From: Benincasa hispida
Lineage: Eukaryota; Streptophyta; Magnoliopsida; Cucurbitales; Cucurbitaceae
Direction: 5' to 3'
DNA: 64,000 nt
NCBI RefSeq assembly: GCF_009727055.1
Contig: NW_024064153.1
Location: 123,922 to 187,921 of the forward strand
Shown here: one piece after another, positions 14,735-49,945 of the stretch
Position numbering within the stretch: position 1 is the first letter of the stretch
Layout: each line of letters begins with the position of its first letter
Position numbers and translations under genes: made by a program
The notes under the pieces: model-generated
What the model was told of the DNA's origin: nothing
The model's input: the letters and a program-made list of their open reading frames with translations, nothing else
Databases searched by the model: none

Positions 14735-14772
14735 CTGTCTCTTATACACATCTAGATGTGTATAAGAGACAG
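14735..14772. other. Nextera mate-pair junction adapter (contaminant)
   Basis: Exact 38-bp sequence: CTGTCTCTTATACACATCT followed directly by its reverse complement. This is two head-to-head Tn5 mosaic ends, the circularisation junction of Nextera mate-pair libraries. It is not genomic. Downstream frame reads ...MYKRQ, a known contamination signature. Confidence 0.98.
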
Positions 14773-15074
14773 GCAATAGCCGGAGCCTTCGACGGAGTTA
14801 GATCTCGAGAGAGTCAACTTCACCGCCCATCCATGGCACCATCTGCAGCCTTGACACATATCTGCTGGAAGCAAGGCATTGCTTCCAGCCGGTCCTTTCA
14901 TTTTCTCTTCCTTTCTTATATTGTATTGTATTACATTTTGGGATTAAGGAATTAATACATTATGTGTTCAATGCATTTCTATGTTTCCTTCGATTCCATC
15001 TCCATCTCTCTTTACATAGCATCATTTACTTTTGTTGCATCACTTAGTGAGATTGCTTGAGTATCGCATACTTA

Positions 15075-15348
15075 GTCATGTGGATTAGAGATATGAAGCA
15101 TGTAGCAAACTACCAGAAGTTGTGCATTGTGCGAGTGTGTGAGAAAACCTTATTTGCTTAGTGTGTAGCTGTAGCAACACCTGTCTATAGGAGCTGTCTC
15201 TTATACACATCTAGATGTGTATAAGAGACAGGTCATGTGGATTAGAGATATGAAGCATGTAGCAAACTACCAGAAGTTGTGCATTGTGCGAGTGTGTGAG
15301 AAAACCTTATTTGCTTAGTGTGTAGCTGTAGCAACACCTGTCTATAGG
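15075..15348. repeat. 117-bp duplication around an adapter
   Basis: 15075-15191 and 15232-15348 are identical over 117 bases and are separated only by AG plus the 38-bp adapter at 15194. The duplication is an assembly product of a mate-pair read running through its junction. Confidence 0.95.
15194..15231. other. Nextera mate-pair junction adapter (contaminant)
   Basis: Exact second copy of the 38-bp adapter, inside the family D solo LTR. Confidence 0.98.
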
Positions 15349-16297
15349 CTAACGCAACGCTTGTCTATGAGTAAAGTCAGCAACAACTAACTGCCCAGGA
15401 GGGTAAGTGGTTGGTCGCATTAAGCAATGTAAGCCATTGTTCACTAGAGATAAGAATAATCTTGCGTCAGCCAAGTTTATATGGTTACCTTGTCTTATGA
15501 GCGCATCATTCATCACTTAGGCATACTTGGAAGAGTAGTCTAAAATCCAAATCTAAAACTCGAGAGAGCAGATTAGAACGCATAAGCAAGAATGGAGAAC
15601 TTAGGAATAAGCTTCGTTTTCTATCACACATCGTATGCACCCTACGGAGAGAATATTGCATGCATCCAAGAAGTAGGATATGGTGGCTGTATGCGGTCAT
15701 CCCAACCTTTTTGCATACACATCGCATACGTCCTAGATTTAGGCTCTAGTGTGTGTAGCATGATCGCATAGCTTGCATTGGCTGAGGTTGCCCTTGCGGT
15801 CACTCTTAAGGGTTGCGATTAAGACATCTTCACGTTTTATCTATTTTCCATGCATTTACTACACGTCAAAGCACTCTTCGAATAGGAATCCATTTTCTAA
15901 AAGATTCTGGCTTTCGTGCTTTGGTGGGTCTCCGAGATCCTTTGGTGTTGTATCTCTACCTCTCATTCATATTCTCATTGTGTTGTCTGTTAGTTAGGAG
16001 TAGGAGTAGTGTTAGCTTAAACTCTCCCATCATTCTTTTATTCAACTGCCGCATACACATACCGCATATGTCTAGCTACAAGTCCCTGAGTTCGACCTCG
16101 GATCACCCAAGAAACTTGTGTTCGCGTTATACTTGGCATGAGCGCAAGAAAACTTGTGACAGGAACGCATGGTCATCGCATACATTTGTTAACACATATT
16201 GTAAGTCTAACGCATGACCACTGACGCATGATAATCAACGCATACATTTAAAACATGCATCGCATATTGCATTCACTTAATTTTTGTCACCTGCAAG

Positions 16298-16565
16298 AGC
16301 TTGGAGGCCTTTGACACTAATATGTGAAAGTCTTTTGTGCCAAAGGTCTCCTTCAATAGGCTCCTTGGTAAAGTTGAATGTATTTTCTGAACCCCTTGAA
16401 CAACATAAACCCCATTTATCTTGAACCCTTTGAAAATAAGCTTACCATTCTTCAATAATTCACAGTAGCCTTCCTTTCCTCTGTATTCGCAACAAATTAA
16501 GTCTAGCATGCCTAGTGAAATTAAGTTTCTCTTCAATTGAGGCATATGTCTGACATTTCTCAGTA
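16298..16565 (-). pseudogene. Copia A protease tail / pre-integrase region
   Basis: The minus-strand frame reads LLRNVRHMPQLKRNLISLG, the conserved block downstream of the Copia protease, then GCEYRGKEG-like and KLIFKGFKINGVYVVQG. The final part (TFGTKDFHILVSKASKLLQ) is the pre-integrase zinc region read one base out of frame. It is bounded by two insertions: the family D solo LTR on the low side and the Gypsy solo LTR at 16571 on the high side. Confidence 0.85.
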
Positions 16566-16570
16566 GTTTG

Positions 16571-19319
16571 TGTAAAACCCGGATTTCCATTTATCCTACT
16601 TAAGCAGGTGGTTAAGGAAATTAACTAAGTAAAAGTTAAATCCTATAGGGAAGGAAACTTCTAAGTGTTGAATAGATTTTCCTTGAGTAGTTTTGAGTTA
16701 AGCCTAAATTGATGAAAAATTGACTAAGTGTTAGGCTAGGCATTGCCATGTGTTGGCCATAAGATCTTGGAGAGATTACTTGGGCCAAGAGAGAAGTTGA
16801 AGTGGGAGTGACGCATGCCTTGGAGGTTAGACCAACGCATTAGGCTAGATGGATGCGTTGGATGCGTTGGATGATGGATGTATTGGATGTGTTGGATGCA
16901 TTGGATGATGGATACGTTGGATGCATTAGATGATGGATGCGTTGGATGCGTTGGTGAAGGAAGGAAAATGGAGAGATGCATTGAAGGGTGGCAGATGGTT
17001 GAAGGATGGCAGCCGAGGATGAGGCATTGGGATGGCACAAGGGCTGAAGGGTGCCATGCATCGAGTAGGCTTGGCCTAACTGCCCAGTCATGCGTCAAAG
17101 CGCCTCAGCCAAACTTCCCAACCATGTGTTGAAGCGGGCCAAGCTGCCGTGCAAAGCGATGCGTCGATGGAAGCGCCCATGCATCGAGCGGCCGAGCGAA
17201 CAATGCGTCAATAGCAGCGCCCATGCGTCGAGCGCCCTATCGATTGGCCATGCATCAAGAACCCCTGCAATCCTTGAACGCCCTGCCAGCGCCCATGCGA
17301 CCGAGCAAGCCATGTGTTGGTGGCCAGCTTCTAAGCCATACGCCCATGTGTCGACGGCTAGCGCCTATGCAAGCACCATGCGCCCATGCCGAGCAAGCCG
17401 TGCGGTGATACCTAGTAAGCCATGCATCAAGGATGAGCGGCCATCCTATGCGTTGGTGATGGCTGGCTCTTATGATGGCTAAGTTGGATTGCGATGCTAA
17501 GTTGGGTTGCTAGGCGTTGAGTAGTGGACTATGCGTTGAACATCCAAGAGTGGACGCATATGAAGGATGAGCTCATATGGAAGACATCATTCGGACATGT
17601 GGCTTGTCAGGGAGGAATTCTTAAACCTTAAGCGAATTAGGTGGAGGCATAAGAAGACATGTAAAGGATGAGGGCTATGCATTGGTGAAAGGAGAAGAAG
17701 ACACTTTGGCTTGCACTGATGTAAGAATGCGTTGATGGTGTGAAGAAAAGACACTTGGACATGTAGCCAAGTCAGAGTGTGTTGGCCGTAGAGCAATCTT
17801 GGATGCCTATAAATTGGCCAAAGACTTTAGATGAGAACTCAAATTCTCTTCATAGTACGTAAAGAAGAGTGTGTGAGGACTAAGTGGGAGAAGACCATGC
17901 GTTGGTAGCAAGACCATGCGTTGGTCAAGAAGTTCCAAGAGGGGGATGCTGTCGGGCAGAAAAGACAGGAAAGTAACATCAACTTGGAACGAGAAGTTCT
18001 CCGCAGAAATACTCGTGAGTTTGGAGTGATTCCAAAGCCATCTGAAAGCTAAAAGAGTCTAGTTTTCATTTTGGGGCTGACAGAGAAGAAACTCCAATGA
18101 ATCGGTCTAGAAGCTGAGAAAAAGACAGAATGGTCAGGCTGTCGGGTAAGCTGGGCCAGTATTGATGTTTTGAATATTCCGGCTAAACCACGAGGCGTTC
18201 TGAGCTAAGATTTTATGATAAGATTCCTGAGACATTTTAGAACATGTTTACAGAAGGAAGTATCTTAAAATAAGTTCTGGAACTATGAGTAATCTAAGCT
18301 GATAATTGAATCTGAAATTTTGGGAAACCAAGGAAACCTAAAGAACTTCGAAAAGGAAAGTTCCTAACCAACCAAGGTGAGTGGTTATTGTGTGTTGTAT
18401 TGTTGATATAATTTCTATATATAGGTAAATATATATAGGGGATAATGTTAAATTGGCATGATCAGGGATATATGTTTATCTGATCACTATGCTTGTTGAG
18501 ATATTGCTTGTATGTTTGTTTTGGAAACTGAAATTGTACTCGGGATACATAGTTAGCATGCTTGAAAAGGGTACTTGGTGGGAAAATATAGTCGGCTTCG
18601 GTCGGCAAAAAATGATAGTCGATGATGATCGGCGGGAAATATAGTCAAGTTACCTAAGCATAGCTAGCGGAAAAATAGTCGATGTGCACATTGGCAGGAT
18701 AATAGGGTACAGGGAAAGTTTCAACAGGAATTGTTGTTTTCTTAGTATACGTGTGAAAGTACTGGAGATGTTTTTATTATGCGAAAACTAGCGATCAAGC
18801 TGGGGTTGATTGTTTTAACCAGCGGTCGAACTGGGGATTGTCTAGCGATTTGGCTGGAAAATAATAATGAATTTGTGGTAATGATCTTGTTGACTATGTA
18901 TTGCTTTCCCAAAAGTATATTTCTGTTGATAAAGTTATTTGTTTATCTAAAGGCACCACTCACTGAGCTTTATATCTCACGTTTTCCATGTTTTATGTTT
19001 TACCCCTCCCCCCAGGTAGCGGAAAGTGAGGAGTTCCAGGGTGCTGCTAAGGTCAAGGTCTGCCACATGCCACAGTTACACTTCTGAAGGGTTCTACAAT
19101 TGTTGTCGTAAACTTTGTTGTTAAGTTTTGGATTTGTATAAACGTTACATTGTTGTAATAAAATGGGCCTACTTAATGAGTTGTAAGTTGAATTTGTTCA
19201 TTGGTATCAGAGTTATTTCCGCAAGAGTTTTAGGCAGTAAGTGTCAACATAAGGGTTGATAACTGCTACAGTCACGACCTTTCCCAGTCTCAGAGGGTAG
19301 TCTGGGGCGGGGTGTGATA
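16571..19319 (+). mobile_element. Gypsy-type solo LTR, family E
   Basis: 2749 bp from TGTAAAACCCGG to ...GGGGTGTGATA, flanked by perfect GTTTG duplications (16566-16570, 19320-19324). Its last 120 bases (GGCAGTAAGTGTCAACATAA..., CAGTCTCAGAGGGTAGTCTG) match the LTRs ending at 31493 and beginning at 39619. A TATA-like CCTATAAATTGG lies at 17809. No gag or pol is inside. It splits the Copia A protease region. Confidence 0.88.
16848..16965. repeat. GATGCGTTGGAT tandem repeat
   Basis: Imperfect repeats of GATGCGTTG and GATGATGGAT lie within the family E LTR. They give long overlapping open frames on both strands (16736-17482), which are low-complexity artefacts. Confidence 0.8.
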
Positions 19320-19324
19320 GTTTG

Positions 19325-19498
19325 ACTATCCTATCTTCTAGCTTGAGTGAGACTAAGCCTATTCCAACTACTAGACATGAGTTATTGTTACCCATGTATA
19401 CTGAACCCCATCCATATCTTTGTATGTGTTGAACCGGTCCTTGTGAGGTGTCATATGAAAAGAGCACCCTGAGATTAGAACCCCTTGATTCTTAGCTG
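19325..19498 (-). pseudogene. Copia A protease core, catalytic Asp lost
   Basis: The minus strand reads ...VLISGCSFHMTPHKDRF, then, after a frameshift, GSVYMGNNNSCLVVGIG and VSLKLEDRIV, continuing into LLRNVRHM at 16565. In Copia proteases the motif is DSG; here the aspartate codon is replaced by ATC (Ile), so the enzyme could not cut the polyprotein. The element's conserved SFHMTPHKDRF downstream of the motif makes the assignment firm. An Athila LTR begins five bases beyond its high edge. Confidence 0.8.
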
Positions 19499-19503
19499 GT
19501 CCA

Positions 19504-21203
19504 TGATAACGGGTAGAAATGCACGTTATCATAGTGCTAAGTTCTTAAATAATGTTGGATTGCGTTGATGAAATATGTTAAATTGCATCCATTAAGCATA
19601 AATTCTATAATATTGTGGTCGCATGCATTCAGCACATTAGAACAATTGATCTTTGTATTTTTGTGCAGAATATACGCAACGCAAGATTGCGATCATAGGA
19701 AATCATTGGTCGAGTGCAACTTCACCGTAAGGCTTTGCGTTGATCGTGCTCGCAAACATTCGCCCAAAAAGGATTGCCGCAACTTGGTCAGTGCAACATG
19801 GTGGACGCATCCGGATGAAAGGATAATTAAGAGAGATGGGACAGAAAGCTGATGATAATCGAATCCAAATTAAGTTGACAGCCGATAATGGTCACAAAAT
19901 ACATTCAGCTATATCGGTGACAATTATCCGGCGCATCAGTCAAGAATTAAAGTTGTCTCATCTATTCAACCAGGAGAGAGAAGCCATCTTTCACCATGAA
20001 TGCTCTATAAATACCAAGAGCATTCTTCAGAGAAGGGGTTAAGCAGTTGATTAGTTAACAGTTTATCAGTTCACAACTTTTACAATTTTTTGTTCCACAA
20101 GTTCACGCCTCTGTCCATAGCTTTCTTTCCTTTTAAGGCGGACGCGAGGAAGAAAGTTGTGTCGGTAGATTGTTTCGATAAGCTTGGGAGAGCACCGGAA
20201 GCTTCAAGGACAGAGAGAGGGCCAACGCCTGTGGAAGCGGGAACATCTTTAGAACAGAATAAAAATTTCAGTGTAAAAAGCCTCGATCAGCAAGAAATTG
20301 CAACCAGACTCTCTACCTTTACTTTCCATTGTTATTTGTACTCAACTCATTTATAAAAATGGAATTTCCTTCTTTATATTTGTTCACTCTCTGTTATTCA
20401 CGCATGAGTAGCTAAATCAGTTGAATGGGTTGAGAAGCATTTAGCTAGCACAGCTAGGGAATCTTCATTCTTTGCGATTATTTTGTTTATGTATACTTTA
20501 TTCGTCCATTAAAGATACTCGGGAGGGTAGTCTAAGGACAGGATCTAAACTTGGGAAGCTCAGTTTAGAATCTAGGTTTGGAAGAACCAGATTAGAATGC
20601 ATAAACAAGAGATAGGCGCTTAGGAATGAGCACTATTTGTTATTAACGCATCATATGCATCTTAGAGATAGGATATGATTGTATGCGGTCACCTTGCTTT
20701 CATGCATTTTGCATCATCGCATAGGACAGGAGTAAAGACTTAGGGATAAGCTCTATGGACACTTTTGCATTCAACACATGCGTCCTAGACTTAGGAGCAT
20801 CGCATTTACATTGGAAAATGACTTGCTGTGCATGGTTGTAACATGATCGCGTAGTCTGACGCATTCTCGAGTAATGCTAGCTAAAGATCTTCTCAACCCG
20901 TTCATCGCATACTCATTGCATCTATCAATGCAACTGTCTTTTCTCAAATCCACTGCCTTTATTTATTTCTTTTTCATCAACACAAACAACAAACCCAACA
21001 CTTTAGTTATTTACTTGGTTACCACAAAGTTTTCATAAAAATTACCAACACAATCTATTTTCACAAGTCCCTGTGTTTGACCCTAGACTTACCAGGAAAC
21101 TCAGAGGAATTTACACTTGAATTCCACTGGGGAAACTTGAGTGCACAACACAAATCCATCACGCATATTATCCATATTTCTACTTCATAAAATATAAGCA
21201 TCA
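19504..21203 (+). mobile_element. Athila-type solo LTR
   Basis: 1700 bp from TGATAACGGG to ...AAGCATCA, with perfect GTCCA duplications at 19499-19503 and 21204-21208. It starts with the hairpin TGATAACGGGT / GCACGTTATCA (19504-19531). It is the same family as 2273-3670 in the opposite orientation. Because it holds no adapter, it is the cleanest complete LTR of the family in the window. Confidence 0.92.
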
Positions 21204-21208
21204 GTCCA

Positions 21209-21881
21209 ACATCATCAGCCCTTTGATTTGGTGTAGCTAGGGCATCTGAATAGAAAAAAGAGTCCTCCCCTACTGAAGCTTCTCCTGATTGACTTGTCTG
21301 ACCTTTCTGTTATTCTTGTTGTTGTTTGTTCTTCTGTTCATTTTTCCATTTCAAGGTTCTGTAATCCTTGATTAGATGCCCAAACTTCTTGCAATACTTG
21401 TATCTAATCTTGTATTTTTCTTTGCCTTCTTCTGTGGAATTCTGCTTGCCCTTTTCTTTGTTATTTTTCTTAGTTTAACCTTTTACAAATAAACCCTCAA
21501 CACTAGGTTTCTCTTCCTTGTAAGTTAATAGCTCCATTTCTCTGATCATTAGAGCTAAAATGATTATATCAGTTGTTACTAAGTCTCTTCCATACTTTAA
21601 AGTTATCTTGATATCTTTGTAAGAGTCTAGAAGTGAATTAAGAAGCACAAACACTTCATTATCAACCCCAATGTCTTCATCTTGAGTCTTAAACTTTGTT
21701 GCCAAAGTCTTTGAGGAGCTCAACTTAAAGGTAAAAAATATTTCTCTCAGAAAAAGTTTGTTTGGCAAATTTTTTGTTTCATACAATTCATTCAACTTAG
21801 TCCACATTTTAAAGGCTATTTCTTGATCAATAACCTGTCTAAGCACACTGTCTGATAGGCTTAGGATAAGTGTACCATGAG
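21209..21881 (-). pseudogene. Copia A gag, C-terminal two thirds
   Basis: The frame starts AHGTLILSLSDSVLRQV near 21881 and continues MWTKLNELYETKNL, LFLREIFFTFKLSS and a SYKDIKITLKYGRD block, the order of the Copia gag UBN2 domain. A decayed nucleocapsid knuckle follows near 21400: YKYCKKFGHLIKDY in place of CxxCxxxGHxxxxC, with two cysteines replaced by tyrosine. Gag would assemble the particle and bind RNA. The apparent start MIEIWNDHS upstream belongs to the inserted Copia C LTR and is not gag. The domain's first part lies at 25350-25512 beyond the insertion. Confidence 0.85.
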
Positions 21882-22694
21882 CAATTGAAGGAAATCTGAC
21901 ATGAGGATTTCCATGAGCAGCAGAATGATCGTTCCAAATTTCTATCATATTTGAACATTAACAATTACAATCAAGAAACTGAAACATACAGGCTATGCAT
22001 AAAACAAAATAACAGCATACTTTACTAAGATCAAGGGAAGAATTACACATACCTTTGAAGACTCATCTTCAATCTCCCTTGATCACGAACGCTCAAACAA
22101 ACTCCAAGACGACAACACACAAACGCTCGAACTCAGCGGTCTCCAAGATCACGAACAATCGGCAACCACCACACGAACACCGCGAACTCAACGAACAACC
22201 TCCAAGAACCTCGCACTATGTCAAGTTGAGTACGACACCACCACAATAGCTACCTCGATATTCTAGGTGTGGGAATCCAGAAGTGTGGGCTCTATGTGGA
22301 CTTGGTTAGAGGACGAGACTGAAGGAAGAACAATCGTGTAAACGATTGAATAAGTGGAAGATGATAAGGTCTATCATATAGACAATTGATGCTTGATTTT
22401 ATGAAGTGATATTATGGATGATATGCGATGATGAAATTGCGTTGAGCACTCAAGTTTCCTCAGCAGAATCCAAGTGTAAACTTCACTGAGTTTCCTAGTA
22501 AGTCCAGGGTCGAACTCAGGGACTTGTGAAAATAGGTTACGTTGGTAATTTTTAGGAAAACTTTGCGGTAACCAAATAAATAAATTGTTGGTTTGTTGTT
22601 GATTGCGTTAATGAAAAATAACAAAAGCGGCGAATTTGAGAAAAGTCGGATTGCTTGATAGATGCACTAAGTATGCGAATGAACGGGTTGAGAG

Positions 22695-22732
22695 CTGTCT
22701 CTTATACACATCTAGATGTGTATAAGAGACAG
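22695..22732. other. Nextera mate-pair junction adapter (contaminant)
   Basis: Exact 38-bp copy inside the Athila solo LTR. Confidence 0.98.
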
Positions 22733-22807
22733 GCATCAGACTATGCGATCATGCCACACTCATGCAACAACAAATCATTTTCCAATGCAAATGCGATGCT
22801 CCTAAGT

Positions 22808-22845
22808 CTGTCTCTTATACACATCTAGATGTGTATAAGAGACAG
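22808..22845. other. Nextera mate-pair junction adapter (contaminant)
   Basis: Exact 38-bp copy, 75 bases after the previous one. Confidence 0.98.
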
Positions 22846-25512: not shown

Positions 25513-25632
25513 CTTGAGCTTTCTTGACAATTTTGATTGCTTCAAGATTTCCTTTCTTTGAGTCTTGAATAACATTCTTCTTCAAAATTTCCTTTCTTTG
25601 AGTCTTGAATAACATTCTTTCTTTCCTTGCAT

Positions 25633-25644: not shown

Positions 25645-25647
25645 CTT

Positions 25648-29289: not shown

Positions 29290-31493
29290 ATGACCATTCA
29301 TTTACAACTTTCACAAAACCCTCTTGTATAAAAATGGAAACAGCTCATCGTAGAGAGTTATAGCGAGATATGGAGAATGAGGATCTCGCTAATGAAGGAA
29401 ATCTCGCTAATTTTGTAATGAGGATCTCGCTCTAAAAGGAAATCTCGCTAGAAATTTGGTTGAATCTTGCTGGTAAGGTGAGTATCGCTAGGAAGACAGT
29501 TTGCTAGGAAAAGCTTGATCTCGCTCATGAGGAGGATCTCGTTAGTAATGTTGTCTTTGTTGATAAAAGTTCCATTAGTAAATGAACTATTTGGGGTATT
29601 TTGCTAAGAATTCTAAGTAGTTTAACCAGGAATTATGTCCTTTCAAGCCAAGAAGAGCTAGGAGAGGCGCATAACCCGTAAAGAGCCCCAACGAGCTGTG
29701 AGTGACTATGTGATGAATCAATGTTTTAATGATTTAGAAACTATGATTTCTTTGAAGATATTTCTCATGCTAAGTGTTTAAATTAAGTGTCAAGCAATAT
29801 ATTTGTGAAACTGTTTCTCATGCTAAGTAAAGCATTTTTTCCATAGAATTGACATGATTTAAATATGTTATCTTGTCCAAATACTTTCACCATGTTTAAG
29901 TAACTCCAATTTTATGATGAACTAGTATGATGATTTGAGCACTAAGCCTTAGTGTTGAACTAAATGTTTATGACTAGTTATATGACGGATACTGAAGGAC
30001 AATGAGAAGGTATCCTAGTTAAGTACCTAAGGTACGACAGTACTCAGTTTTAACCACGTGCACATAGGTAATACGACGTCGAGGGATTGAGCAAAAGGGT
30101 TCTCCCCGACTAAGGTTGCCGTTGAGGGTTAGATCTAGTAATTCACTCTCAACTAAGGATAAAGGCAGTCATATCTTCTCCTAGGCTAGGAGGATAGTTT
30201 GGAATTGCTAATGCTTATGAACGTTTATCAACGCATGCCGTTTACTAATGTATGAGTTTTCCAAGTATGTTTTCCATGTCTAACGCATGCTAGTGGTTTT
30301 TACAAGCTAGTTCAATATGTTTTAAGCCAACTTATTTCACAAAGTATGAAGCATGCGTTAGGGTTAAAGCTAAGGTTGAATGAAGCTTGATATACTATGT
30401 TTTAAATACCTAAGGTTGTCAAAGTACAAGCGTTGGTATTTCTAAACATAATTATCCTAAAGAGTTTTCTATGCTATATTTGAGAGCTATTCTTTTAATG
30501 TTCTTCGAGAACTTGATAGCTTAAGTGAGCCGAATACTGAAGGTAAGGAAGGTATCTAAATAAATATACCTAAGGTGTTGACGGTACATAGAAAACTCCA
30601 TGTGCACATAGGCAGGTCTGAATGAGAGGCCGAAGTATGGGTCTCTTGGCCGATAACAAACGTTGGGAGCTAGAGCGATGTATGCTCGTTCTCAACTAGG
30701 GAATGATTATGTTTCATGGTGTTTAAGAGTTGTTATCAATGTTTATGTTTAAAGAAAGTTGCTTAAGATGCCCATCGGTATATTTAAAGAGATCAACGTA
30801 GGGATCTCTCCTAGCCATAGTTCAGTATGAACAGGTCGAAGTAGAGGTCTCATCTGGCCATGGCTTGGCGTTGGGAATTAGTGTGATGAATGTTCATTCT
30901 CAACTAAGATTCAGGTTTCAGATACAATGGTTTTAAAGGTTTTATGTACACGTTTGCTTGGTATAATTAGTTCCAGTATTATGTTTTCAAGCTTTCAATT
31001 TAAGCATGAGATTTATGTTTTTATTAATTCCAGTATTATGTTTTCAAGCTTTCAATTTAAGCATGAGATTTATGTTTTTATTAAGTCACTCACTGGGCTT
31101 CTAGCTCACGTTTTCAAATGTTTTCCTTTTCAGGTAGCGGTTAGTTCCCAAAAGACTTTTCTGCTGCTGCTCTGCCACTCAAAGAAACAGATTGAAGGAA
31201 GTGTAATTGAAGACCTGTATTAGTTAGTACACATATGTCTGTCTAGTGACTAGTATTCTAGATGGGGCTCACTAAGTTGTAATATTCATGTATGAACAAT
31301 GTTGCGAAACCCTGTAATGTGAATGTGTTAAGTTCTGAGTTGATATGTTGGTATATTGATGACATGTATGTATTCAGGGTTTGAACAAAATTTAACAGGT
31401 TAGATAGGCAGTAAGTGCCAGCAAAAGGGTTGGTAACTGTTGCAGTCACCATTCCATCCAGGTTAAGAGGGTAATCTGAAGTGGAGTGTGACA
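29290..31493 (+). repeat. Gypsy 5' LTR related to family E
   Basis: The end is firm: GTGTGACA at 31493 followed by AG and the PBS. The last 110 bases share GGCAGTAAGTGCCAGC and AGTCACC...GAGGGTAATCTGAAG with family E. The start is only approximate, inferred from the usual 2.1-2.7 kb of this LTR. The first part has repeated (G)ATCTCGCTA units (29350-29540). GATACTGAAGGA...GAGAAGGTATC modules occur near 29990 and 30535. Confidence 0.7.
30971..31084 (+). repeat. 57-bp perfect tandem duplication
   Basis: TTCCAGTATTATGTTTTCAA and the following 37 bases occur at 30971 and again at 31028, in the U3/R part of the LTR. Confidence 0.95.
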
Positions 31494-34242: not shown

Positions 34243-35288
34243 TCATCTGTAAATCCAACGTGCCCCAAGAAGCTTTATATAGCCTTCCACGCTGGTTGGA
34301 GGTGGAAGTTTTTTTAATTGCTTCAATTTTTGCTTTGTCCACCTCCACCCATCCTGAGAGACCTTATGTCCCACAACTATGTCCACCTTCACCATGAAAT
34401 GGCATTTCTCCAGTTGAGCACCAGATTCGTCTTTTTGCATCTTTTCAGTATCCTCTCCAGATTGGCTAGACAGACTTCATAAGTGTTCCATAAACAGATA
34501 AGTCATACATAAATATTTCCACAGAGTCCTCGAGATAATCTAAAAAGATGGCCATCATGCACCTTTGGAACGTGCTTGGCGCATTGCAGAGGCCAAATGG
34601 TATGCAGCGAAAAGCAAATGTCCCATATGGGCAAGTGAATGTGGTCTTGTCTTGATCTTCTGGAGCCATCATATTTGATTGTATCCGGCATAAACCATCC
34701 AAGAAGCAATAGAAGTCATTTCCTACTAGTCGGTCCAGCATTGATCGATGAATGGTAGGGGGAATGATCTTTCTTCATGGTCGTATTCAGCTTGCAGTAG
34801 TCCATGAAAATGTGTCATTCATTATGGTTCTTTACGGTATTAATTCATTATTATCATTCGAGACTACCGTCATGCCGCCCTTCTTCGACACACACTGCAT
34901 GTGGCTGACCTATGTGCTATCTGCTATAGGATAGATAATGCCCGTATCTGGCCATTTGATAATCTCCTTCTGATGCCTCCTTCATCGCAGGGTTGAGTCT
35001 GCATTGATGTTCAATTGTTTCTTTGTGGTTATCTTCAAGATGAATGTGGTGCATGCAATACGTAGGGCTAATTCCTCTAATGTCGGCGAGCATCCAGCCA
35101 ATTGTTTGCACATGCTTCCTAAGAATGCACATCAACGCATTTTCCTGATCTTCATTGAGCAAAGAGGAAATGATAACTGGCAGCTTCTCATTCTGCCCCA
35201 AAAATGTGTACTTTAAATGGGTTGGTAGGGTCTTCAATTCAAGTGTTGGATTGTTTTGCATAGCATAAAATAAGAAAATCACAAGCAA
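34243..35288 (-). pseudogene. Athila reverse transcriptase
   Basis: The lead-in reads NPTLELKTLPTHLKYTFLG and WMLADIRGISPTYCMH (residues about 14-95 of the first frame, 34917-35288). After breaks comes the RT palm (34466-34741): FYCFLDGLCRIQSNM, APEDQDKTTFTCPYGTFAFR and PFGLCNAPSTFQRCMM. The catalytic box reads IFMYDLSV where active copies have two aspartates, so one catalytic aspartate is replaced by tyrosine. The thumb side (34243-34440) reads EKCHFMV...GHKVSQDGW and KKLPPPTSV. It would copy the RNA into DNA; this copy is dead. Confidence 0.88.
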
Positions 35289-36230
35289 TGAACTTCCTAG
35301 GTCATGTTAGCTTAGTTCTTCTCAACCTATTCAACTAGTTTAACTACTCATGCGTGCTAAGAGAGTGAACAGATGTAGAAATAGAACTTCCATTGTATAA
35401 ATATAAAGATGAAGTACACAATAACAATACAAGTATAGAATAAAGGGCCTGGTAGCAATCTCTTGCTGCCAGGTGTTTACACTTGTGTGTACTGATGCTC
35501 AAAAGATAATCTCGCTCTCGCGAGAGTCGACCCGCTTTTTGCTTCTTCACCTCAAGGTTCTCTCTCGAGTTGTCCTAAGCGATCTTCAGTGCCACCACTC
35601 TTCTCTTGCTCTGCCTTAAATTAAAAGGAAAACTATGGGCAGAGGAGTGAATAAAAGATCGTTAAAACGGTGAACTGATCAACTCGTCAACCCCTTCTCT
35701 GAAGAATGCCCTTGGTATTTATAAAGCATCCATGGTGAAAGAGGGCTTCTCTCTCATGGTTGTACAGATGGGACGGCTTTAATTCCTAACTGATGCAACG
35801 AATAATTGTCACCGAAAAGCTGAATGTACTTGTGATCGTTATCGGCTGTCAACTTAATTCGGATTCGACTGTCATCAGCTTGCTGTCCCATCGCACTTAA
35901 TTAGCCTTTCACCCAGATGCGCCCACCATGTTGTGCTGACCAAGTTGCGGCGATCCTTCTCGGGCGAATGTTTGCAAACAAAACCATCGTAAAGCCTTGC
36001 GGTGAAGTTGCGCTCAACCAAAGATTTCCTATGATCACAATTCTTGCATTGTGTCAATGCATATTCTGCACAAAAATACAAAAATCAATTGTTCTAATGC
36101 GATGGACGCATGTGACCGCAATATTATCAAATTGATGCTTAATGGACGCAAATTAACATATTTCATCAACACAATCCAACATTGTTAAAGAACTTAGTAC
36201 TATGATAACGTGCATTTATGCCCGTTATCA
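35289..36230 (-). repeat. Athila LTR fragment between protease and RT
   Basis: Begins on the minus strand at 36230 with the family hairpin (36203-36230) and runs through the TATA/U3 and R parts, but lacks roughly the last 700 bases of a full LTR. It was probably an insertion into the protease-RT spacer of the host Athila; the low-side target duplication is gone. Confidence 0.75.
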
Positions 36231-36621
36231 GCATTATGCTTATACTTTCCCTAAGATCACATAGTGCTTGGCCACTGTAGATCCCTCCAATTAAACATGG
36301 TATCGTGAAGATTCCTAGGTCGCACATTTTTTGTGGGATTATAGCATTTTGCGTTGCGGCCACTATTGCGATCTTGTCTTCATCATTTTGTTTCTCTTTC
36401 AATCTTTGCGGCATTGCTGGTGGTTGGACTTCTTCTGCCTCAAGATCTAGAGGCTTGAGGGTGGATGCAACTTCAGGGTTCATTTTCTCGGGCTTTCCCG
36501 AACTATAGGTCAATGGGTCCTCGGTTGTCACCGCATTTAAGTTGGTCGCAATGGGTTCCTCCCTTACTTCCGTAGTCATTTGTTCACTTAGCAAAGAGAC
36601 TGCTAAGCATTGTTCCTTTCT
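36231..36621 (-). pseudogene. Athila aspartic protease
   Basis: The minus-strand frame ends with MCDLGIFTIPCLIGG and GQALCDLRESISIML. In Athila proteases the active site is DLGASI; here glycine and alanine are replaced (DLRESI). Upstream is a low-complexity acidic spacer. The long open frame reported across 36622-36666 starts in adapter sequence (SYTHLDVYKRQ), so its first residues are artefacts. The C-terminal residues after SIML come from the LTR. Confidence 0.8.
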
Positions 36622-36659
36622 CTGTCTCTTATACACATCTAGATGTGTATAAGAGACAG
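36622..36659. other. Nextera mate-pair junction adapter (contaminant)
   Basis: Exact 38-bp copy between Athila protease and an LTR piece. Confidence 0.98.
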
Positions 36660-36745
36660 ATCGCATGCAATGAAGATCCTAGGTCATGTTAGCTTAGTTC
36701 TTCTCAACCCATTCGACTAGTTTAGCTACTCATGCGTGCTAAGAG
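36660..36745 (-). repeat. Misplaced Athila LTR piece between adapters
   Basis: 86 bases matching the LTR interior (compare 35290-35365 and 38430-38515: GATCCTAGGTCATGTTAGCT). Its position between two adapters, inside coding sequence, shows that it is an assembly insertion. Confidence 0.85.
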
Positions 36746-36783
36746 CTGTCTCTTATACACATCTAGATGTGTATAAGAGACAG
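36746..36783. other. Nextera mate-pair junction adapter (contaminant)
   Basis: Exact 38-bp copy. Confidence 0.98.
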
Positions 36784-36868
36784 CCCTAGCATTGCGAGGA
36801 AGCTCAATTGAGCTCGGCAACGCTCATTTGTCCCATTTGGATTTCGAGATTTCTAATGGATGCAGCCT

Positions 36869-36904
36869 CTGTCTCTTATACACATCTAGATGTGTATAAG
36901 AGAC
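36869..36904. other. Nextera mate-pair junction adapter, 2 bases short
   Basis: The first 36 bases of the adapter are present and then genomic CACCAG follows, so the junction was trimmed. The 85 bases before it (36784-36868) are probably another displaced gag piece. Confidence 0.97.
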
Positions 36905-37708: not shown

Positions 37709-39383
37709 TGATGCGTTATTTTATGAAGTGAAATTATGGAGGAAATGAGATGGTGAAAATGCGTTGAGCACTCAAGTTTTCTCAGTGGAATCCAAGTGTA
37801 AATCCCACTGAGTTTCCTGGTAAGTTCAGGGTCGAACTCAGGGACTTGGGAAAATAGGTTGCGGTGGTAATTTTTAGGAAAACTTTGCTGTAACGAAATA
37901 AATCAATAGTTGTTGAGGTTGTTGTTTGCGGTAATGAAAAATAAACAAATGCGACGGAGTTTGAAAATAGTTGAAAAAACGGAAGATGCGATGAGTATGT
38001 GGTGAACGAGTTGAGAAAAGTTTCGGCTAACACTTCCTAGGATGCGTTCATGCTATGCGATCATGAAACATGCATACAACAGTAAACCACCACTCGGTGC
38101 GAATGCTACTTCTAAGGCTAGAACGCATGCGATATATGCGATACGTCTATAGGACCTACACATAAGCCTCTATTCTTATTTATGCAATGACAGAATGACA
38201 CACACATAAATAAGGCGACCACATAATATCATTCTTATCTCTAGGATGCATGTGATGCAGGTTGGCAAACAGAGTTTATCTCTAAGTCCCTATCTCTTGT
38301 TTATGCAGTTCTAATCTGACTCTTCCGAGCCTAGATTCTAACCTGACCTTCCCAAGCCTAGATCCTGTCCTTAGACTACCCTCCCGAGTATCTCTAATGG
38401 ACGAATGAAGCACACATAATACAAGATAATCGCATAGAATGAAGATCTTAGGTCATGTTAGCTTCGTTCTTCTCAACCCATTCGACTAATTTAGCTACTC
38501 ACGTGTGCTAAGAGAGTGAACAGATGTAGAATAAGAATTTCCATTGTATAAACATAAAGATGAAGTACAAGACAACAATGCAAGAATAGAATAAAGAGCC
38601 TGGTAGCAATCTCTTGTTTTCTAGGCTTTTACACTTGTCTTTTCTACTCGTGTTCAAAAGATATTCTCGCTCTCGCTAGAGTTGGCCCGCTCTCTGCTTC
38701 TACGCCTCTGGGTTCTCTCTCAAGTTGCCCTGAGCGATATTTCGGCGTATCGGCTCTTCTCTTGCTCCGCCTTAAAATAAAAGGGAAAACTATGGAAAAG
38801 GCTAAATTCTGTAGAAATTTATCTAAGTATTCGAACTCCTTTTCTGAGGTTGCCTTCTATATTTATAGAGCTTCGAGGTGAAGGTGGCTTCTTTCTTATG
38901 ATTGCACAGATGGGATGGCTTTAATTCCCTGACTGATGCGCCAAATATTTGTCACTGAAAAGCTAAATGTACTTGTTATCGTTAGTGGCTGTCAACTTAA
39001 TTCGGATTCGACTGTCATCAGCTTTCTGTCCCATCGTGATTATTTATGCCTTTCACCCAGATGCACCCACCAAGTTGTGTCGGCTCTATGCGGCAATCCT
39101 TCTTGAGCAAATGTATGCGAACACAGATCACCACGAAGCAACACAGGCCTTGCTGTAATACTGCGCTCAACCATTGAATTCTTGAGATCGCGCTTCTCGC
39201 CCTGCGTTAACACATATTTTGCATAAAAATACCAAAGTTAACTGTTCTAATGCGATGAACGCATACGACCGTAATGTTATAAACTTAATGCTTTTTGGAC
39301 GCAATCTAACATGTTTTATCAACGCAACCCAGCATTGTTTAAAAACTTAGCACTATGATAACGTGCATTTCTACCTGTTATCA
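37709..39383 (-). repeat. Athila 5' LTR
   Basis: 1675 bp with minus-strand ends TGATAACAGGT and ...CGCATCA; the terminal hairpin is at 39356-39383. Adjacent PBS on the low side. GTCAC (39384-39388) should be its target copy in the gag remnant that follows. Confidence 0.88.
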
Positions 39384-42096: not shown

Positions 42097-42134
42097 AATT
42101 TCGTCCTCGAAATTTCGCTACAAGTTCGTCAGTT

Positions 42135-43652
42135 AAACAAGTGCGGATACTTATTTCTGATTTTCTCTTCAACTTCCCATGTTGCTTCTTCTGTAGCATG
42201 ATTTTTCCATAGCACCTTTACTAATGGGATTTCTTATTTCTTAAGACCTGTTCTTTTCTGTCAAGAATCTCCACTGGTTCCTCTTCATACGACAAATTCT
42301 CTTTTAACTGTACCAGTTGCTCAAATAATATATGAGTAGGATCTGGCACATACTTTCTAAGTATTGCCACATGAAACACATCATGAACACGAGATAAATC
42401 TGGAGGTAAATCCAGTCGGTACGCCATTGGGCCAACTCTTTCTATTATCTCATAGGGTCCAATATGTCTCGGGCTTAATTTCCCTTTCTTACCGAACCTG
42501 AGTACTCCTTTCCACGGAGATAATTTCAGAAATACTTTATCACCCACTTCAAACTCTAATTCTCTTCTCCGCTTATCGGCATAACTTTTCTGCCTATCTC
42601 GAGCCGTCTTAAGATTATCTCTTATAATTTTAATGTTATCTGATGTTTGTTGTACAAGTTCTAGACCTAGCAATTTCCTTTCACCCACTTCATTCCATCA
42701 TATCGGAGTCCTACATGGTTTCCCGTATAGTGCTTCATATGGTGCCATCCCGATACTAGAATGGTAACTGTTGTTATACGCAAATTCGATTAACGACAGA
42801 TGCGTATCCCAACTGCCTTTGAATTGCAGTACACACGCCCTCAGCATGTCTTCCAATGTCTGGATTGTCCACTCAGACTGACCATCCGTCTGTGGATGAA
42901 AAGCTGTACTAAAATATAACTTGATCCCTATATCTTTCTGCAAACTAGGCCAAAACTTTGATGTAAATCTGGAGTCGATCCGATACATTTGAAACTGAAG
43001 CTCCAAATTGACTTACGACTCGATCAACATACACCTTAGCTAGTTGGTCCAGGGTATAAGTGACTTTAACAGGTAAAAACTTAGCTGTTTTTGTCAATCT
43101 ATCCACAATTACCCATATACCATCATAGCTCGCTGATGTCCTAGGTAATCCATACAGGAAATCCATCGTGATATGTTCCCACTTCCATTCTGGTACTGGG
43201 AGTGGATTTAGTAGTCCTACTGGTCTCTGTCTTTCTAGTTTAACTTGTTGACATATTAGACACTTGTCAACATACTCCGCTATTTCTCTTTTCATACCAC
43301 GCCACCAGTACGATCTCTTTAATGTTCTGTACATCTTCGTACTGCCTGGATTCATAGCATATGCCGAACTATGCGCTTCTTCTCGGATACCTTGTTTAAG
43401 TGTTAAGTCCTTAAGTACGCAAATCCTACCCTTCTTTAGTAGCACTTTGTCAGCTCTTAATTGATAGTCGGTCCTCAATCCTTTATCTACTTCTTTAGCT
43501 AACTTCTGAAGATCAAAATCCTTTAACTGTTCCCATAGAATATCTTCTACGAGCGTAGGACGCACTTGAAATAAAGCTAGTAATCCTCCCTTTCGATCGA
43601 TTGATAATGCCGCCCTAGCATTGTACAACTCATGAATCAGTGTACCCTTCAC
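42135..43652 (-). pseudogene. Chromovirus integrase with chromodomain
   Basis: Domains in order from 43652 downwards. The zinc-binding part reads HSSAYAMNPGSTKMYRTLKR then CLICQQVK; the second histidine of the HHCC set is replaced by asparagine. The catalytic core has MDFLYGLP (first Asp). A frameshift near 42985 follows VSD, and the core resumes as RFTSKFWPSLQKD, STAFHPQTDGQSEWTIQT with the catalytic glutamate. After a stop at 42697 comes the C-terminal SH3-like region VFLKLSPWKGVLRFGKKGKL, GPYEIIERVG and RVHDVFHVAILRKYVPDP, then EILDRKEQVLRNK. A second frameshift near 42230 leads into a chromodomain-like VLWKNHATEEATWEVE. The chromodomain would guide insertion to heterochromatin. Confidence 0.9.
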
Positions 43653-44222
43653 TGAGTTAATACTAGCTTTAGCTGATCTAGTTTTTCAACTTAAAGCATC
43701 AGCTACCACATTTGTTTTACCTGGATGATAGTCAATTATACAGTCATAATCTTTAATCAATTCGAGCCATCTTCTCTGTCTTAGGTTTAGTTCCTTTTGA
43801 TCAAAGATATGCTTAAGACTTTTATGATCCGTAAATATATGACATTACTCACCAAACAGGTAATGTCTCCACAATTTTAGAGCTAACACAACTACTGCTA
43901 ACTCATAAGTCGTGTGTAGGGTAATTACATTCATGCTTCTTTAACTGTCGCGATGCATAGGCTACTACTTTTCCCTCTTGCATTAGCACACATCCTAACC
44001 CTTGTCGGGATGCATCACAATAAACTTCAAACTCCTTACCAGGTGTAGGTAGAGTTAATACTGGTGCTGATACTAACCTTTGTTTCTGCACTTGGAAACT
44101 ATGCTCGCATTCTGGCGATCATTCAAACTTTGCATCTTTTCTAGTCAGGTTTGTCAATGGAAGACCTATCTTAGAGAAACCCTCCACGAATCTCCTATAA
44201 TAACCTGCTAAACCAAGAAAAT
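43653..44222 (-). pseudogene. Chromovirus RT C-terminus and RNase H
   Basis: The minus strand reads FLGLAGYYRRFVEGFSKI (RT thumb), then [20 protein letters not shown] (RNase H start), [23 protein letters not shown], a stop after [23 protein letters not shown] and [12 protein letters not shown]. The RT palm with its catalytic aspartates is missing; the sequence joins gag at about 44258, a deletion of roughly 1.5-2 kb that removed protease and most of RT. Confidence 0.85.
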
Positions 44223-44257
44223 GTTTAGCTGGTGATGAAAATCTCGGTCCTTGCTAC

Positions 44258-44649
44258 CTCGGTGGCTACTAGTTTAGGAGCAAAGTGGGACAGCTTATCA
44301 AATTCCTATTCACACTCCTCCACCGACATAACTCCCTGTTTCAAGTTTAAGAATTCTGCCTACTTGTTGTACCGGGCGTTGGCCAAAAAATACTTCTCAT
44401 AAAAGCACTCCTTGAACTGCTCCCAGGTTGCAAGTTTCCCACCAGTATCAATCATTTTCTCTGTTGAATGCCACTAGATTTCTGTGTTGCCAGTCAACAT
44501 GAAAACTGCACATTGGAGCTTGTGCTCTTCCGGGCACCTCATAAAATAGAAATCGTCTCGATAGATGATAACCACATTTCTGCTTTGGTGGGTCTCCCAA
44601 CGATCCATCAAAGGAACGAGGGTCAAACTTCCTGAAATCCCTCAAATGT
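44258..44649 (-). pseudogene. Gypsy gag, central part
   Basis: The minus strand reads HLRDFRKFDPRSFDGSLGDP, then a block with CP-EEHKLQCAVFMLTG in the parallel frame, then WEQFKECFYEKYFLANARYN and EFDKLSHFAPKLVATE. This is the Retrotrans_gag order of plant chromoviruses. Its N-terminus continues at 46743 on the other side of the solo LTR, and TTAGC is duplicated at the two edges. Confidence 0.85.
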
Positions 44650-44654
44650 TTAGC

Positions 44655-46737
44655 TGGTGACGAAAATTAGTGAACACAATATGCGATGCATGTCTTAAGG
44701 TATGCGTTTATACTCATGCATCGGTGGTCATGCGTTGGAATGAAACTATGCATTAACGAATCTATGCGATGACCATGCGTTCCCGTCACAAGTTTTCTTG
44801 TGCTCACGCCAAGTATAATGCAAACGCAAGTTTCTCGGGTGATCCGAGGTCGAACTTAGGGACTTGTAACTAAATGCTATACGGTAATGTGTTTGCGGCA
44901 GATAAATAAAAGAATGATGGAGGGTATAAGCTACAAACTACTCCTACTCCTAACAGACAAAGCATTGGAAGTATGAATGAGAGGTAGAGACACGACAACT
45001 GTTGGCGCGTAGTAAATGGATGGATAAAATAGATAAAAATGTGAGGATGTCTTCATCGCAACCCTTAAGGTTGACCGCAAGGGCAACCCCAGCCAACGCA
45101 AGCTATGCGATCATGCTACACACACTTGAGCCTATTTCTAGGATGCATGCAATGTATATGCGAAGTGTCGAGAGGCCTTATTCCTAAGTCTCTATTCCTG
45201 CTCATGTGCTCCCACACATAAACAAGATGACCGCATACCACCGTATCCTACTTCTTGGACGCATGCAATATTCCTCTCCGTAGGGTGCATACGCTGTGTA
45301 ATAGCAAACGAAGCTTATTCCTAAGTTCCCTATTCTTGCTTATACGTTCCAATCCGCTCTCTCGAATCTTAGATTTGGTTTTTAGAATACTCTCTCAAGT
45401 TGCCTAAATGATGAGTGATGCACTCATTAAGACAAGGTAATCGCAATACCTAGTTGACGTAAGATTATTCCTATCTCTAATGAGTACTTGCTTACATTGC
45501 TTAATTCAACCAACCACTTACCCTCCTAGGCAGCTAGTTGTTGCTAACTTTACTCATAAACAAGTGTTGTGTCCACCTATAGACAGGCATTGCTACAGCT
45601 TCACACTAAGCAAATAAGGTTTTCTTACAAACATCACGCAACGCACACCTCCGGTGGTTTGCTACATGCTTCATATTCCTATGGCATATGATTAAGTATG
45701 CAATACTCTAACAGCCTCACTAAGTGATGCAATGAAGATTAAGGATACTAAGTAATGAAGATGGAGATGGAATCGAAGGAAATTTAGAAATGCATTGAAC
45801 ACACAATGTATTAATTTCTTAATCCAAAATGTAATACAATACAACATGAGAAAGAAGAGAAAATGAAAGGACCAGCTGGAAGCAATGTCCTACTTCGAAC
45901 AGATGTGTGTCAAGGCTGCTAGTGGTGCCATGGATGGGTGGTAGAGCTGACTCTCTCGAGATCTAACTCTGTCGAAGGCTCCGGCCGTCACTTGAAATGG
46001 ATGAGGAGATGAAGAACTCTCAAGCTTTCTTCTCATGCGTTAGTCTGGATCACATGGATCCACCCGAAGGTAGGAAACCTTGGATGAAAACCTTGGATGA
46101 TTTGAAATTCTGCTCAGTGGCCTCTATTTATAGAGCTGGATCACTGACAGCATTAATGACCTGCTCTGATTCTAACATTCGCGACGCGTTGGTCCTTTTC
46201 TGAATCTCTGCTGCTAACAGCGTGGTAGGTGAAATGTCAACATCATCTTTTGATTTTCCCGAGATATGCATTGATGCTTCCATTCCACCAACCTTGCATT
46301 CATCCCTCTATTATGGTTATCATCATGTAGCCGCAAACTTGCAATGACCGCATTCGCTTGATTACTACAACTTCTACACAATGATCACAATCTCTTGACG
46401 ACCACAACTCCTATACGATGGACGTATGCGGTCGACTACCGCAACACCCATGCATTGATCGTATGCGTTCGTCTTTACAATGGAGAATTTCTCTGCATGC
46501 GGTCGTCTATGTGATAGCCCAACTTCCGCTTCTGCGTCCACTTTATGCGTTAACTACAAAGATAGACAATTAAATGCATAATAATGCATAATAGTGGGTT
46601 AGCCGAGATTCGTAATCCTGAACGACGCAAACTCATTTTCTCATGAATTTCTAACATAATTGTCGCATATTCTACTTAACATCCTTCATAATTCTAAATA
46701 AAAGGCCTAAGATGATGTGCATTTCTGCATGTCATCA
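44655..46737 (-). mobile_element. Solo LTR, family D, in chromovirus gag
   Basis: 2083 bp with ends TGGTGACG...TGTCATCA and perfect TTAGC duplications (44650-44654, 46738-46742). The hairpin is at 46711-46737. It is free of adapters and serves as the reference for the damaged copy at 14207-16292. A TATA motif (minus strand CTCTATAAATAGAGG) lies at 46122-46137. Confidence 0.92.
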
Positions 46738-46742
46738 TTAGC

Positions 46743-47250
46743 CTCAAGAGAAAAGCCCTACATGTCTCTATCCTGCAGTCGGGTCTACTGTAACTGCTCG
46801 GGTGGCACCAGTTCCTCCTGAGCCTAGTTCTGGTCAGTCTATCCTGCCATTGTGTTACGGATCAGCTTCTACAGTTTTCCCATTAGGGAGGATGCAATAG
46901 CTTCACTAATTCTGGATTCCATTGCCTTCTCATCGACTTGGGCTATAGGTGGATTTGGAGTTGTCAGGACAGTCTGGCTACTCTCAGCTCCCTCTTCTTG
47001 CAGCCTTCCTCTAACAGTCTTTCTTGTTCTAGGTTTAGGTGTCATGTCCTGTCATGAACTCATAAATTAACTATCTATCTCTGGGTCTTTCTCATAAATC
47101 ATGATATTAAAACACTACATCACTAATCTCATATATGCACTGAAAACTTACATTAGTACGAAATACCTGGCGATGACGAGGAATCTGTTGCTGGGCCACA
47201 GGGACTATCTAGACTTACATAGTAAGTCAGTCTACAAAATCCAAAATATG
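46743..47250 (-). pseudogene. Gypsy leader and gag N-terminus
   Basis: Following the PBS, the minus strand has a short leader and then a frame MTPKPRTRKTVRGRLQEEG near 47045, with AQVDEKAMESRISEAIASSL downstream, typical of the disordered start of chromovirus gag. Stops follow near 46865. The frame leads to the insertion site of the family D solo LTR. Confidence 0.75.
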
Positions 47251-47263
47251 GGCTCTGATACCA
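47251..47263 (-). promoter_or_regulatory. Primer binding site (tRNA-iMet)
   Basis: Minus strand TGGTATCAGAGCC, two bases from the LTR end at 47266. Confidence 0.9.
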
Positions 47264-47265
47264 AC

Positions 47266-47754
47266 TGTAACGACCCGACCCTCTAGGACTTAAGCTAGGC
47301 CGTTACTAAATACATGCATGCACGGAACTTAAAACGACACTCTTTTATGGTGAAATAAATGCTAAATAAATAAGGTAAGTTCAAAAGTCCTTTATTAAAT
47401 GCAAATATTAAAAACAACAATAGGGTACCCATAAATCATAAATGTTAATAAATAAGTTTGAAAACAATTCTTAATAGTAGGTTTCAAATATCAAAACTGA
47501 AAGTTAAGCAAAACATGAAAGGAAATCTAAGTCTCATGTGCAGAAGCATAAAACTGGTCCCAGTGGCTCGAGCATGAATTCCGCTTGTCCATTACCGGTG
47601 CATCTCTACCTTCACCTGAAACAACAACATGAGAAAGAATAAGTATAAAATACTCAGTAAGTAACCCCATTAATGGGGTCAGATTAGGCATCTATGTCCT
47701 CTACATGCCTACCTCTGGTGGAACATATAAACCGCCCTAATCCTCATGGGACAC
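47266..47754 (-). repeat. 5' LTR fragment of a different Gypsy family
   Basis: On the minus strand it ends ...GAGGGTCGGGTCGTTACA. This differs from the family E end ...GGGGTGTGACA of the 3' LTR at 39619, so the two flanking LTRs do not match. It is cut at 47755 by an Athila LTR. Confidence 0.75.
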
Positions 47755-48780
47755 TGATGCGTTATTTTATGAGGTGAAGTTATGGAAAGAAATGTGGTGA
47801 TGGAAATGCGTTGAGCAACAAGTTTTCTTAGAATAATCCAAGTATAAATTCCATTGAGTTTCCTAGTAAGTCCAGGGTCGAACTCAGGGACTAAGGAAAA
47901 TGGTATGCAGTGATAATTTTCAAGAAGATTTTGCGGTAACCAATCAATCGAATAGTTGTTTTGGGTTGTTGTAGCAGTGTAAAATAAATGTATGTGGCGG
48001 AGTTACAAAAAAAGTTGATAATACGGAAGATGCGATGAATATTCAGTGAACGGGTTGAGAAGGGGTTCAGCTAACACCTCCTAGGATGCGTTCATGTTAT
48101 GCGATCAGGCAACACCCATACAATAGCAAATCATCTCTCAATGCAGATGCTACGGCTTCTAGTACTAAAACGCATGCGATATATGCGATAAGTCTATAGG
48201 ACCTACACATAAGCCTCTATTCTTATTTATGTGATGACAACATGACATACACACAAATAAGGAGACCACATAATATCATAACCTATCTCTAAGGTGCATG
48301 CGATGCAGGTTGGCATAGCTTATCTCTAAGTCCCTATCTCTTGTTTATACAGATCTAATCTTGCTCTCTCAAGTCTAGATTCTAACCTAGCTCTCTCAAG
48401 TCTTAGGTTCTTTCTTTAGACTCTCTCTCGAGTAGCTCTAAAGGGGTGTTGGGCACAGCATAAAACAAGATAATTGCATGCAATGAAAATCCTAAGTCAT
48501 GTTAGCTTAGTTCTTCTCAACCTATTTGATAAATTTAGCTACTCATGCATGCTTTTAAGAGAGTGAACAGATGTAGATAAGCAAGTTCCATTGTATAGAT
48601 ATAGAGTTGAAATACAAAATAACAATGCAAGATAAGAATAAAGAGCATGGTGGCAATCTCTTGCTTCCAAGGCTTTTACACTGTCTTTTCTACTCTGTTC
48701 AAAAAATAGTCTCGCTCTCGAGAGAGTCGGCCCGCTCTCTACTTTTCCACGAGTCGGCCCGCTCACTTCCAATTATCTCT
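47755..48780 (-). repeat. Athila LTR fragment
   Basis: Starts TGATGCGTTATTTTATGAGG and follows the LTR at 37709 closely (AGTCCAGGGTCGAACTCAGG, then ATGCGATATATGCGATA) for about 1 kb. The U3 end with the hairpin is missing; homology fades after a duplicated GTCGGCCCGCTC near 48750. Confidence 0.8.
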
Positions 48781-49090
48781 TCTTCCACCCGTTCTTCTAT
48801 TTTCTTTTGTTGTCGATTTTTTTTTTAATTTTTCCGCTTCCTTTTTTCTTTCTTTTCCTTTTTTTTTCCTTCTTTTTTTTCTTATTCATTTTCTTCTCCT
48901 TTTCACCCACGTTATTTTTTGTTTCTTTCTTTTCTTTCGATTTTTTTTCTTTTTTTGTTTTCTTCTTTTTTTTTTTTCTTAAAACTAACTTGCCTCCTTG
49001 CCCTTTTTTTTATAAGGGCTAGAATTACTAGTAACCTGCACTATAAGGGGCCAAAATGTGGGTTTTTTCCGTTTTTTTTTTTTCATATGT
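48781..49090. repeat. Pyrimidine-rich low-complexity tract
   Basis: Mostly T and C on the plus strand with runs of T up to about 12. The frames here (48807-49104) encode only F, S, L and are not genes. Confidence 0.85.
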
Positions 49091-49109
49091 ATATGTACAT
49101 ATAATTATA

Positions 49110-49945
49110 TATTAGCAGGGGACATTTGATATGTGACTACCAGCTCTGCCAGCAATGATCTGACTCCTGCTAGACACAGCCCCTATGTGGGCGACTTTGT
49201 AGCGTGTAGGGGTAGTCGCCAGTTCCGCCAACAACAATTGTACTCCTGCTAGACATAGTCTTTATGTGGATGACTGTGTAGCCTACAGGGGTGGTCGCCA
49301 ACTCCACCAAAAATGATCTAACTTCTGCTAGGCACAGCTCTTATGGGCCGACTGTGTAGCCTATAAGGGTGGTCACCACCTCAGCCAACAACGATCTGGC
49401 TCCTGCTAGACACAGCCTCTATGTGGGTGACTGTGTAGCCTCTGTCTCTTATACACATCTAGATGTGTATAAGAGACAGATCTGGCTCCTGCTAGACACA
49501 GCCTCTATGTGGGTGACTGTGTAGCCTGCAGAGGTGGTCGTTAGCTCCACCAATAATGATCTGACTCCTGCTAGACACAACCCCCATGTGGGCGACTGTG
49601 TAGCCTGCAGAGGTGATCGCCAACTCCCAACGATCTGACTCCTACTAGACATAACCCTTATATGGGTGACTGTGTAGCCTGCAGGGGTGGTGACATGCCA
49701 ATAACGATCCGACTCCTGTTAAACACAGCCCTTATGTGGGTGGCTACATAGTCCACAAGGGTAGTCGCCAGCTCCGCCAACAACGATTTGACTTTTGCTA
49801 GACACAACCCCTATGTAGGTGACTGTGTAGCCTACGGGGGTGGTTGTCAACTTTGTCAATAACGATCTGACTCTTGCTAGATACAACCCTTATGTGGGTG
49901 ACTACGTAGTCTGCAGTGGTGGTTGTCAACTCCACCGCGCTTATT
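49110..49945 (+). repeat. 78-80 bp minisatellite
   Basis: About ten diverged units, each with (A)CGATCTGACTCCTGCTAGACA, ACAGCCCYTATGTGGGTGAC, TGTGTAGCCTGCAGGGGTGG and TCGCCAACTCCGCCAA. Unit starts at about 49161, 49240, 49319 and 49397 give periods of 79, 79 and 78. The adapter at 49442 sits inside, with a 48-bp perfect copy on each side (49394-49441 and 49480-49527), so the unit count is unreliable. Confidence 0.9.
49442..49479. other. Nextera mate-pair junction adapter (contaminant)
   Basis: Exact 38-bp copy within the minisatellite. The minus-strand frame crossing it ends ...CLLYTSRCV, another known contamination string. Confidence 0.98.

Follow-up and report, generated by a model that had tools for sequence, protein, structure and literature searches.

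This locus raises the question of why a single 38-base sequence, composed of a 19-mer joined head to head with its own reverse complement, stands at eight places among the worn repeats of a 64-kb window (the whole stretch of DNA analysed), and whether it is the circularisation junction of Nextera mate-pair libraries, as the initial annotation had claimed. The eight sites are as follows.

14735..14772, unstranded: perfect 38-base junction adapter, located by the 19-mer/38-mer match search
15194..15231, unstranded: perfect 38-base junction adapter, between identical 117-base flanks
22695..22732, unstranded: perfect 38-base junction adapter, replacing 27 bases of three other repeat copies
22808..22845, unstranded: perfect 38-base junction adapter, at a place where three other copies have 444-446 bases that are missing here
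36622..36659, unstranded: perfect 38-base junction adapter, first of a triple cluster
36746..36783, unstranded: perfect 38-base junction adapter, second of the triple cluster
36869..36904, unstranded: junction adapter minus its last two bases, third of the triple cluster
49442..49479, unstranded: perfect 38-base junction adapter, within a 79-base tandem array

At up to 3 mismatches the 19-mer was found 16 times in the 64-kb window, and all of these matches fell into 8 head-to-head pairs in which the two halves abut with zero bases between them. Fifteen of the 16 matches were exact and the remaining one carried 2 mismatches, while shuffled versions of the window gave a mean of 0.02 matches and a maximum of 1 (100 shuffles). 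The two mismatches belong to the copy at 36869, in which the first 36 bases are exact and the end reads CA rather than AG. The window contains zero N. With the sites themselves (+/-5 bases) left out, no 11-mer of the 38-mer was found elsewhere in the window; worn or half copies are thus absent, unlike what would be expected for an old natural repeat family. All eight starts listed above match exactly those claimed in the initial annotation, and letter comparison agrees with its count of seven perfect copies and one, at 36869, that is two bases short. Its description of the surroundings as mutated holds in general, since the repeat copies are about 60 to 94% identical within the window and long frames are few.

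Stop-to-stop frames of at least 150 codons number only 10 in the 64 kb. A Pfam scan of nine open frames gave matches for four and none for the other five. Of the four, one matched a copia-type reverse transcriptase (RVT_2, E 3e-63), one a copia-type gag and the other two integrase-associated domains. The longest frame listed in the window, of 453 codons at 11646-13007 on the minus strand, carries the copia-type reverse transcriptase domain. Judged by its content, the window is eukaryote-like DNA holding the remains of LTR retroelements; Rfam at gathering thresholds gave no match in it. Several tandem duplications were also observed. The one at 14298-14369 is a perfect 32-base duplication (2.2 copies, 100%) amid worn repeats, 365 bases before the first adapter, and is possibly another contig-end overlap that was kept twice. 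Two-copy duplications at 25540-25619, 30966-31084 and 57704-57902 have units of 40, 57 and 95 bases with 97-98% matches. A tandem array at 50420-50794 (35-base units, 10.7 copies) partly overlaps a 199-codon minus-strand frame, and tandem repeats of variants of CTGATAGC and TGATAG lie at 63116-63902, near the end of the window.

The identity of the 38-mer was deduced from published letters and from its occurrence in other assemblies. All 38 letters are printed in PMC7357533 as a biotin-labelled ring adapter circularising fragments of ~4 kb; the available part of that paper presents the sequence as a circularisation adapter, the name Nextera being absent from the text around it. This paper was the sole match in a literature search for the whole 38-mer. 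The accessible portion of PMC3906532 gives two Nextera trimming sequences, each the reverse complement of a transposase sequence, and both start with the 19-mer as the shared adapter part. According to the available text of PMC3928519 (NextClip), the transposase adds a 19-bp biotinylated adaptor to both fragment ends, circularisation joins them, and the adaptor is matched as 19 or 38 bases. In the window, the 19-mer is joined directly to its own reverse complement over 38 bases, perfectly in seven of the eight copies, and the letters as printed recur at 38/38 bases in those seven and at 36/38 in the eighth.

The same letters were also found in unrelated assemblies, whatever the organism. The exact 38-mer occurs in at least 120 stretches of genome_contigs, from at least 19 prokaryote genomes, and the examples looked up span five phyla (Cyanobacteriota, Actinomycetota, Pseudomonadota, Bacteroidota and Bacillota). 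It is further present in 7 stretches of 6 IMG/VR viral contigs, and 5 of 72,556 plasmid records contain it, while none was found among 50,697 phage records or 20,395 E. coli records. These two zeros fit a rare artefact that is cleaned out of finished records, a match that was not predicted beforehand. Since the same letters occur in unrelated organisms, they point to a reagent rather than to anything confined to a single lineage, be it a gene or a mobile element. The claim that the 38-mer is the Nextera mate-pair circularisation junction is therefore borne out by the letters in the available parts of these papers together with the unrelated assemblies, and its assignment as a laboratory artefact, with no biological feature, is well supported; no evidence against this identity was found. 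Among the matches listed in literature searches on adapter contamination of assemblies, no title announced a survey of the 38-mer in assemblies, and one may still exist.

The next question is what each adapter did to the sequence around it, for which the other copies of the same repeats within the window served as the yardstick. At 14735 the flanks are collinear with one comparable (inverted) copy, which has about 200 bases at that place, near 45992-46191. At 22695 three other repeat copies each hold 27 bases in the place of the adapter, and at 22808 the length between the flanks is 446, 444 and 445 bases in three other copies. The other copies in the window are without the 38-mer at all three positions. 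The piece between the second and third of these adapters likewise keeps its place.

22733..22807, plus strand: 75-base inter-adapter piece, collinear with its own left flank

The differences of 27, 200 and 445 bases could in part be natural variation between repeat copies, the 200-base figure coming from one copy.

At two further sites the adapter separates exact duplications.

15075..15191, plus strand: left copy of the 117-base duplication (exact), separated by two bases from the adapter at 15194
15232..15348, plus strand: right copy of the 117-base duplication, adjoining the same adapter
49394..49441, plus strand: left copy of the 48-base duplication (exact), within the 79-base tandem array
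49480..49527, plus strand: right copy of the 48-base duplication, touching the adapter at 49442

The array at 49140-49936 comprises about ten 79-base units with 72% matches and is broken by the adapter at 49442. The 48-base identity may reflect the natural likeness of neighbouring units; against this, the likeness of the other units to the reference unit is 60-84% across 85 bases. Overlapping flanks were observed at two of the eight window sites and not at the other six. By letter comparison the 38-mer is the published adapter; judged by the repeat copies within the window, it either replaces genomic sequence or sits between duplicated genomic sequence at five sites.

The triple cluster at 36622-36904 is the sole place whose pieces are either misordered or unmatched in the window.

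36660..36745, plus strand: 86-base inter-adapter piece, matching 35278-35363 and 38429-38514 at 92% identity
36784..36868, plus strand: 85-base inter-adapter piece, unmatched elsewhere in the window

The order of the first piece disagrees with that of its neighbours in the repeat. For the second piece and for the 300 bases left of the cluster, the rest of the window offers no match other than a self-match of 14 bases. It is these pieces that favour reading the adapters as chimeric joins of truly unlinked loci, with the sequence order wrong at every site. Such joins are nevertheless unlikely as a general account, as both flanks at 14735, 22695 and 22808 follow a single repeat copy in order and on the same strand, and the flanks at 15194 and 49442 are exact duplications of each other. 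The geometry at five of the eight sites would instead fit a local mis-closure. The initial annotation had stated that each copy marks a place where two unlinked fragments were joined or a gap was filled wrongly. With collinear flanks at three sites and duplicated flanks at two, "gap filled wrongly" is the more apt part of this statement, and "two unlinked fragments" applies at most to the cluster.

A second alternative takes the 38-mer for a palindromic repeat native to this genome, or for a miniature mobile element, recently inserted into older retroelements. Eight near-identical copies lie within 64 kb, several of them in repeats that are otherwise without it, yet this reading is exceedingly improbable and was rejected because the same letters cross five phyla and no worn copies are present in the window. 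The hosts include at least 19 prokaryote genomes, plasmids and viral contigs, and the letters are those of a library adapter. Moreover, 27-446 bases are replaced at three sites, which does not correspond to clean insertion, and the flank duplications, at 0, 48 or 117 bases, have no constant length. As a candidate class, a native mobile element or dispersed repeat was rejected on the same observations, as neither diverged copies nor clean insertions flanked by target-site duplications of uniform length were found. It is hardly conceivable that the 38-mers were contributed by a physical Tn5 construct, for instance a vector or a tagged clone, instead of a mate-pair library: the 19-mer half is the hyperactive Tn5 mosaic end, but the halves always abut directly, as in a circularisation product, and 12 other linkers and adapters, including TruSeq, lox, 454, SMRTbell, two Nextera tails and P5/P7, were unmatched in the window (1 or 3 mismatches by length).

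Taken as a whole, the best explanation is, with near certainty, that these are Nextera mate-pair circularisation adapters, probably left behind by untrimmed reads during gap closing or contig joining. In the documented protocol, as given in the available text of PMC3928519, placement of the 19-base adapter on both fragment ends by the transposase and subsequent circularisation generate the palindromic 38-mer, and reads crossing the junction carry it internally. Untrimmed reads of this kind may then have entered gap closing or contig joining in repeat-rich DNA, and the adapters most likely stayed where gaps were wrongly closed. Three outcomes are envisaged. A gap left truly unfilled would appear as missing bases plus the 38-mer (14735, 22695 and 22808); overlapping contig ends may have been kept twice (15194 and 49442); and reads sharing only the 38-mer may have been chained via it, which would leave read-sized pieces between adapters (36622-36904). 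Counting against this mechanism are the six window sites that have no flank overlap at the adapter, the 116 of 139 sites in other assemblies that likewise lack one of at least 15 bases, and the 14 of 27 spacings elsewhere that exceed 150 bases. A more tentative extension, to which we give somewhat less than even weight, is that the adapters outline former gaps and that the region holds more gap-closing errors that are unmarked, for example at 14298-14369, so that some of the structural differences between retroelement copies would be artefactual.

The artefact bears on the use of the assembly and says nothing of the biology of the organism. At all eight sites, gene models are untrustworthy, and so are structural-variant calls and the annotation of repeats. 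The 38-mer is an open frame encoding VSYTHLDVYKRQ on either strand, and the adapter peptide can therefore enter predicted proteins. This peptide was found in 15 of the 16 site-by-strand readings of the window, the longest frame concerned having 170 codons. That frame, at 36169-36678 on the minus strand, has VSYTHLDVYKRQ near its start and no Pfam match, and would be a spurious gene model. In the loci fetched from other collections (L001-L127, from viral_contigs and genome_contigs), 316 stop-to-stop frames with the adapter peptide were counted, not deduplicated, and 91 of these are at least 100 codons long. No paper came up when the literature was searched for the peptide encoded by the adapter. 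Scanning the entire assembly for the 38-mer would reveal further places to recheck, if any exist.

The fetched loci allowed the flank pattern to be compared with that at 139 distinct adapter sites elsewhere, sites with identical 60-base flanks being counted once and 15 further sites near locus ends being dropped. Exact flank overlaps of at least 15 bases, starting no more than 5 bases from the adapter on each side, were present at 23 of the 139 sites, as against 0 of 692 controls, and the other 116 sites were without such an overlap. The first control for this comparison had given 58 of 691, likely from N-vs-N matches, and the rerun with N excluded was used. Overlaps with no slack were seen at 18/139 sites, spread over 7 genomes, and exact flank repeats of at least 30 bases within 400 bases at 37/139 sites versus 4/691 control positions; the counts of 23, 18 and 37 are not independent, because many of the loci come from one Enterococcus genome. 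Among the 27 spacings listed between neighbouring adapters elsewhere, 13 are at most 150 bases and 14 exceed this; the short ones come from four genomes, most of them from one Enterococcus, and the window spacings of 113, 123 and 124 are like them. These counts show that the flank pattern recurs and do not give its frequency of origin.

The closest known systems are accordingly of two kinds. With the Nextera mate-pair junction adapter itself the window shares the same 38 letters, but here they lie inside assembled sequence and not only in raw reads. The deposited assemblies of Enterococcus sp. 10A9_DIV0425, Scytonema tolypothrichoides VB-61278 and Streptomyces sp. rh34 bear an identical 38-mer, and in such bacterial assemblies the adapters are sometimes clustered 69-146 bases apart and some exact flank duplications touch the adapter, as at the 18 sites in 7 genomes counted above. 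Those assemblies are bacterial, whereas the present window consists of repeat-rich DNA with LTR retroelement domains.
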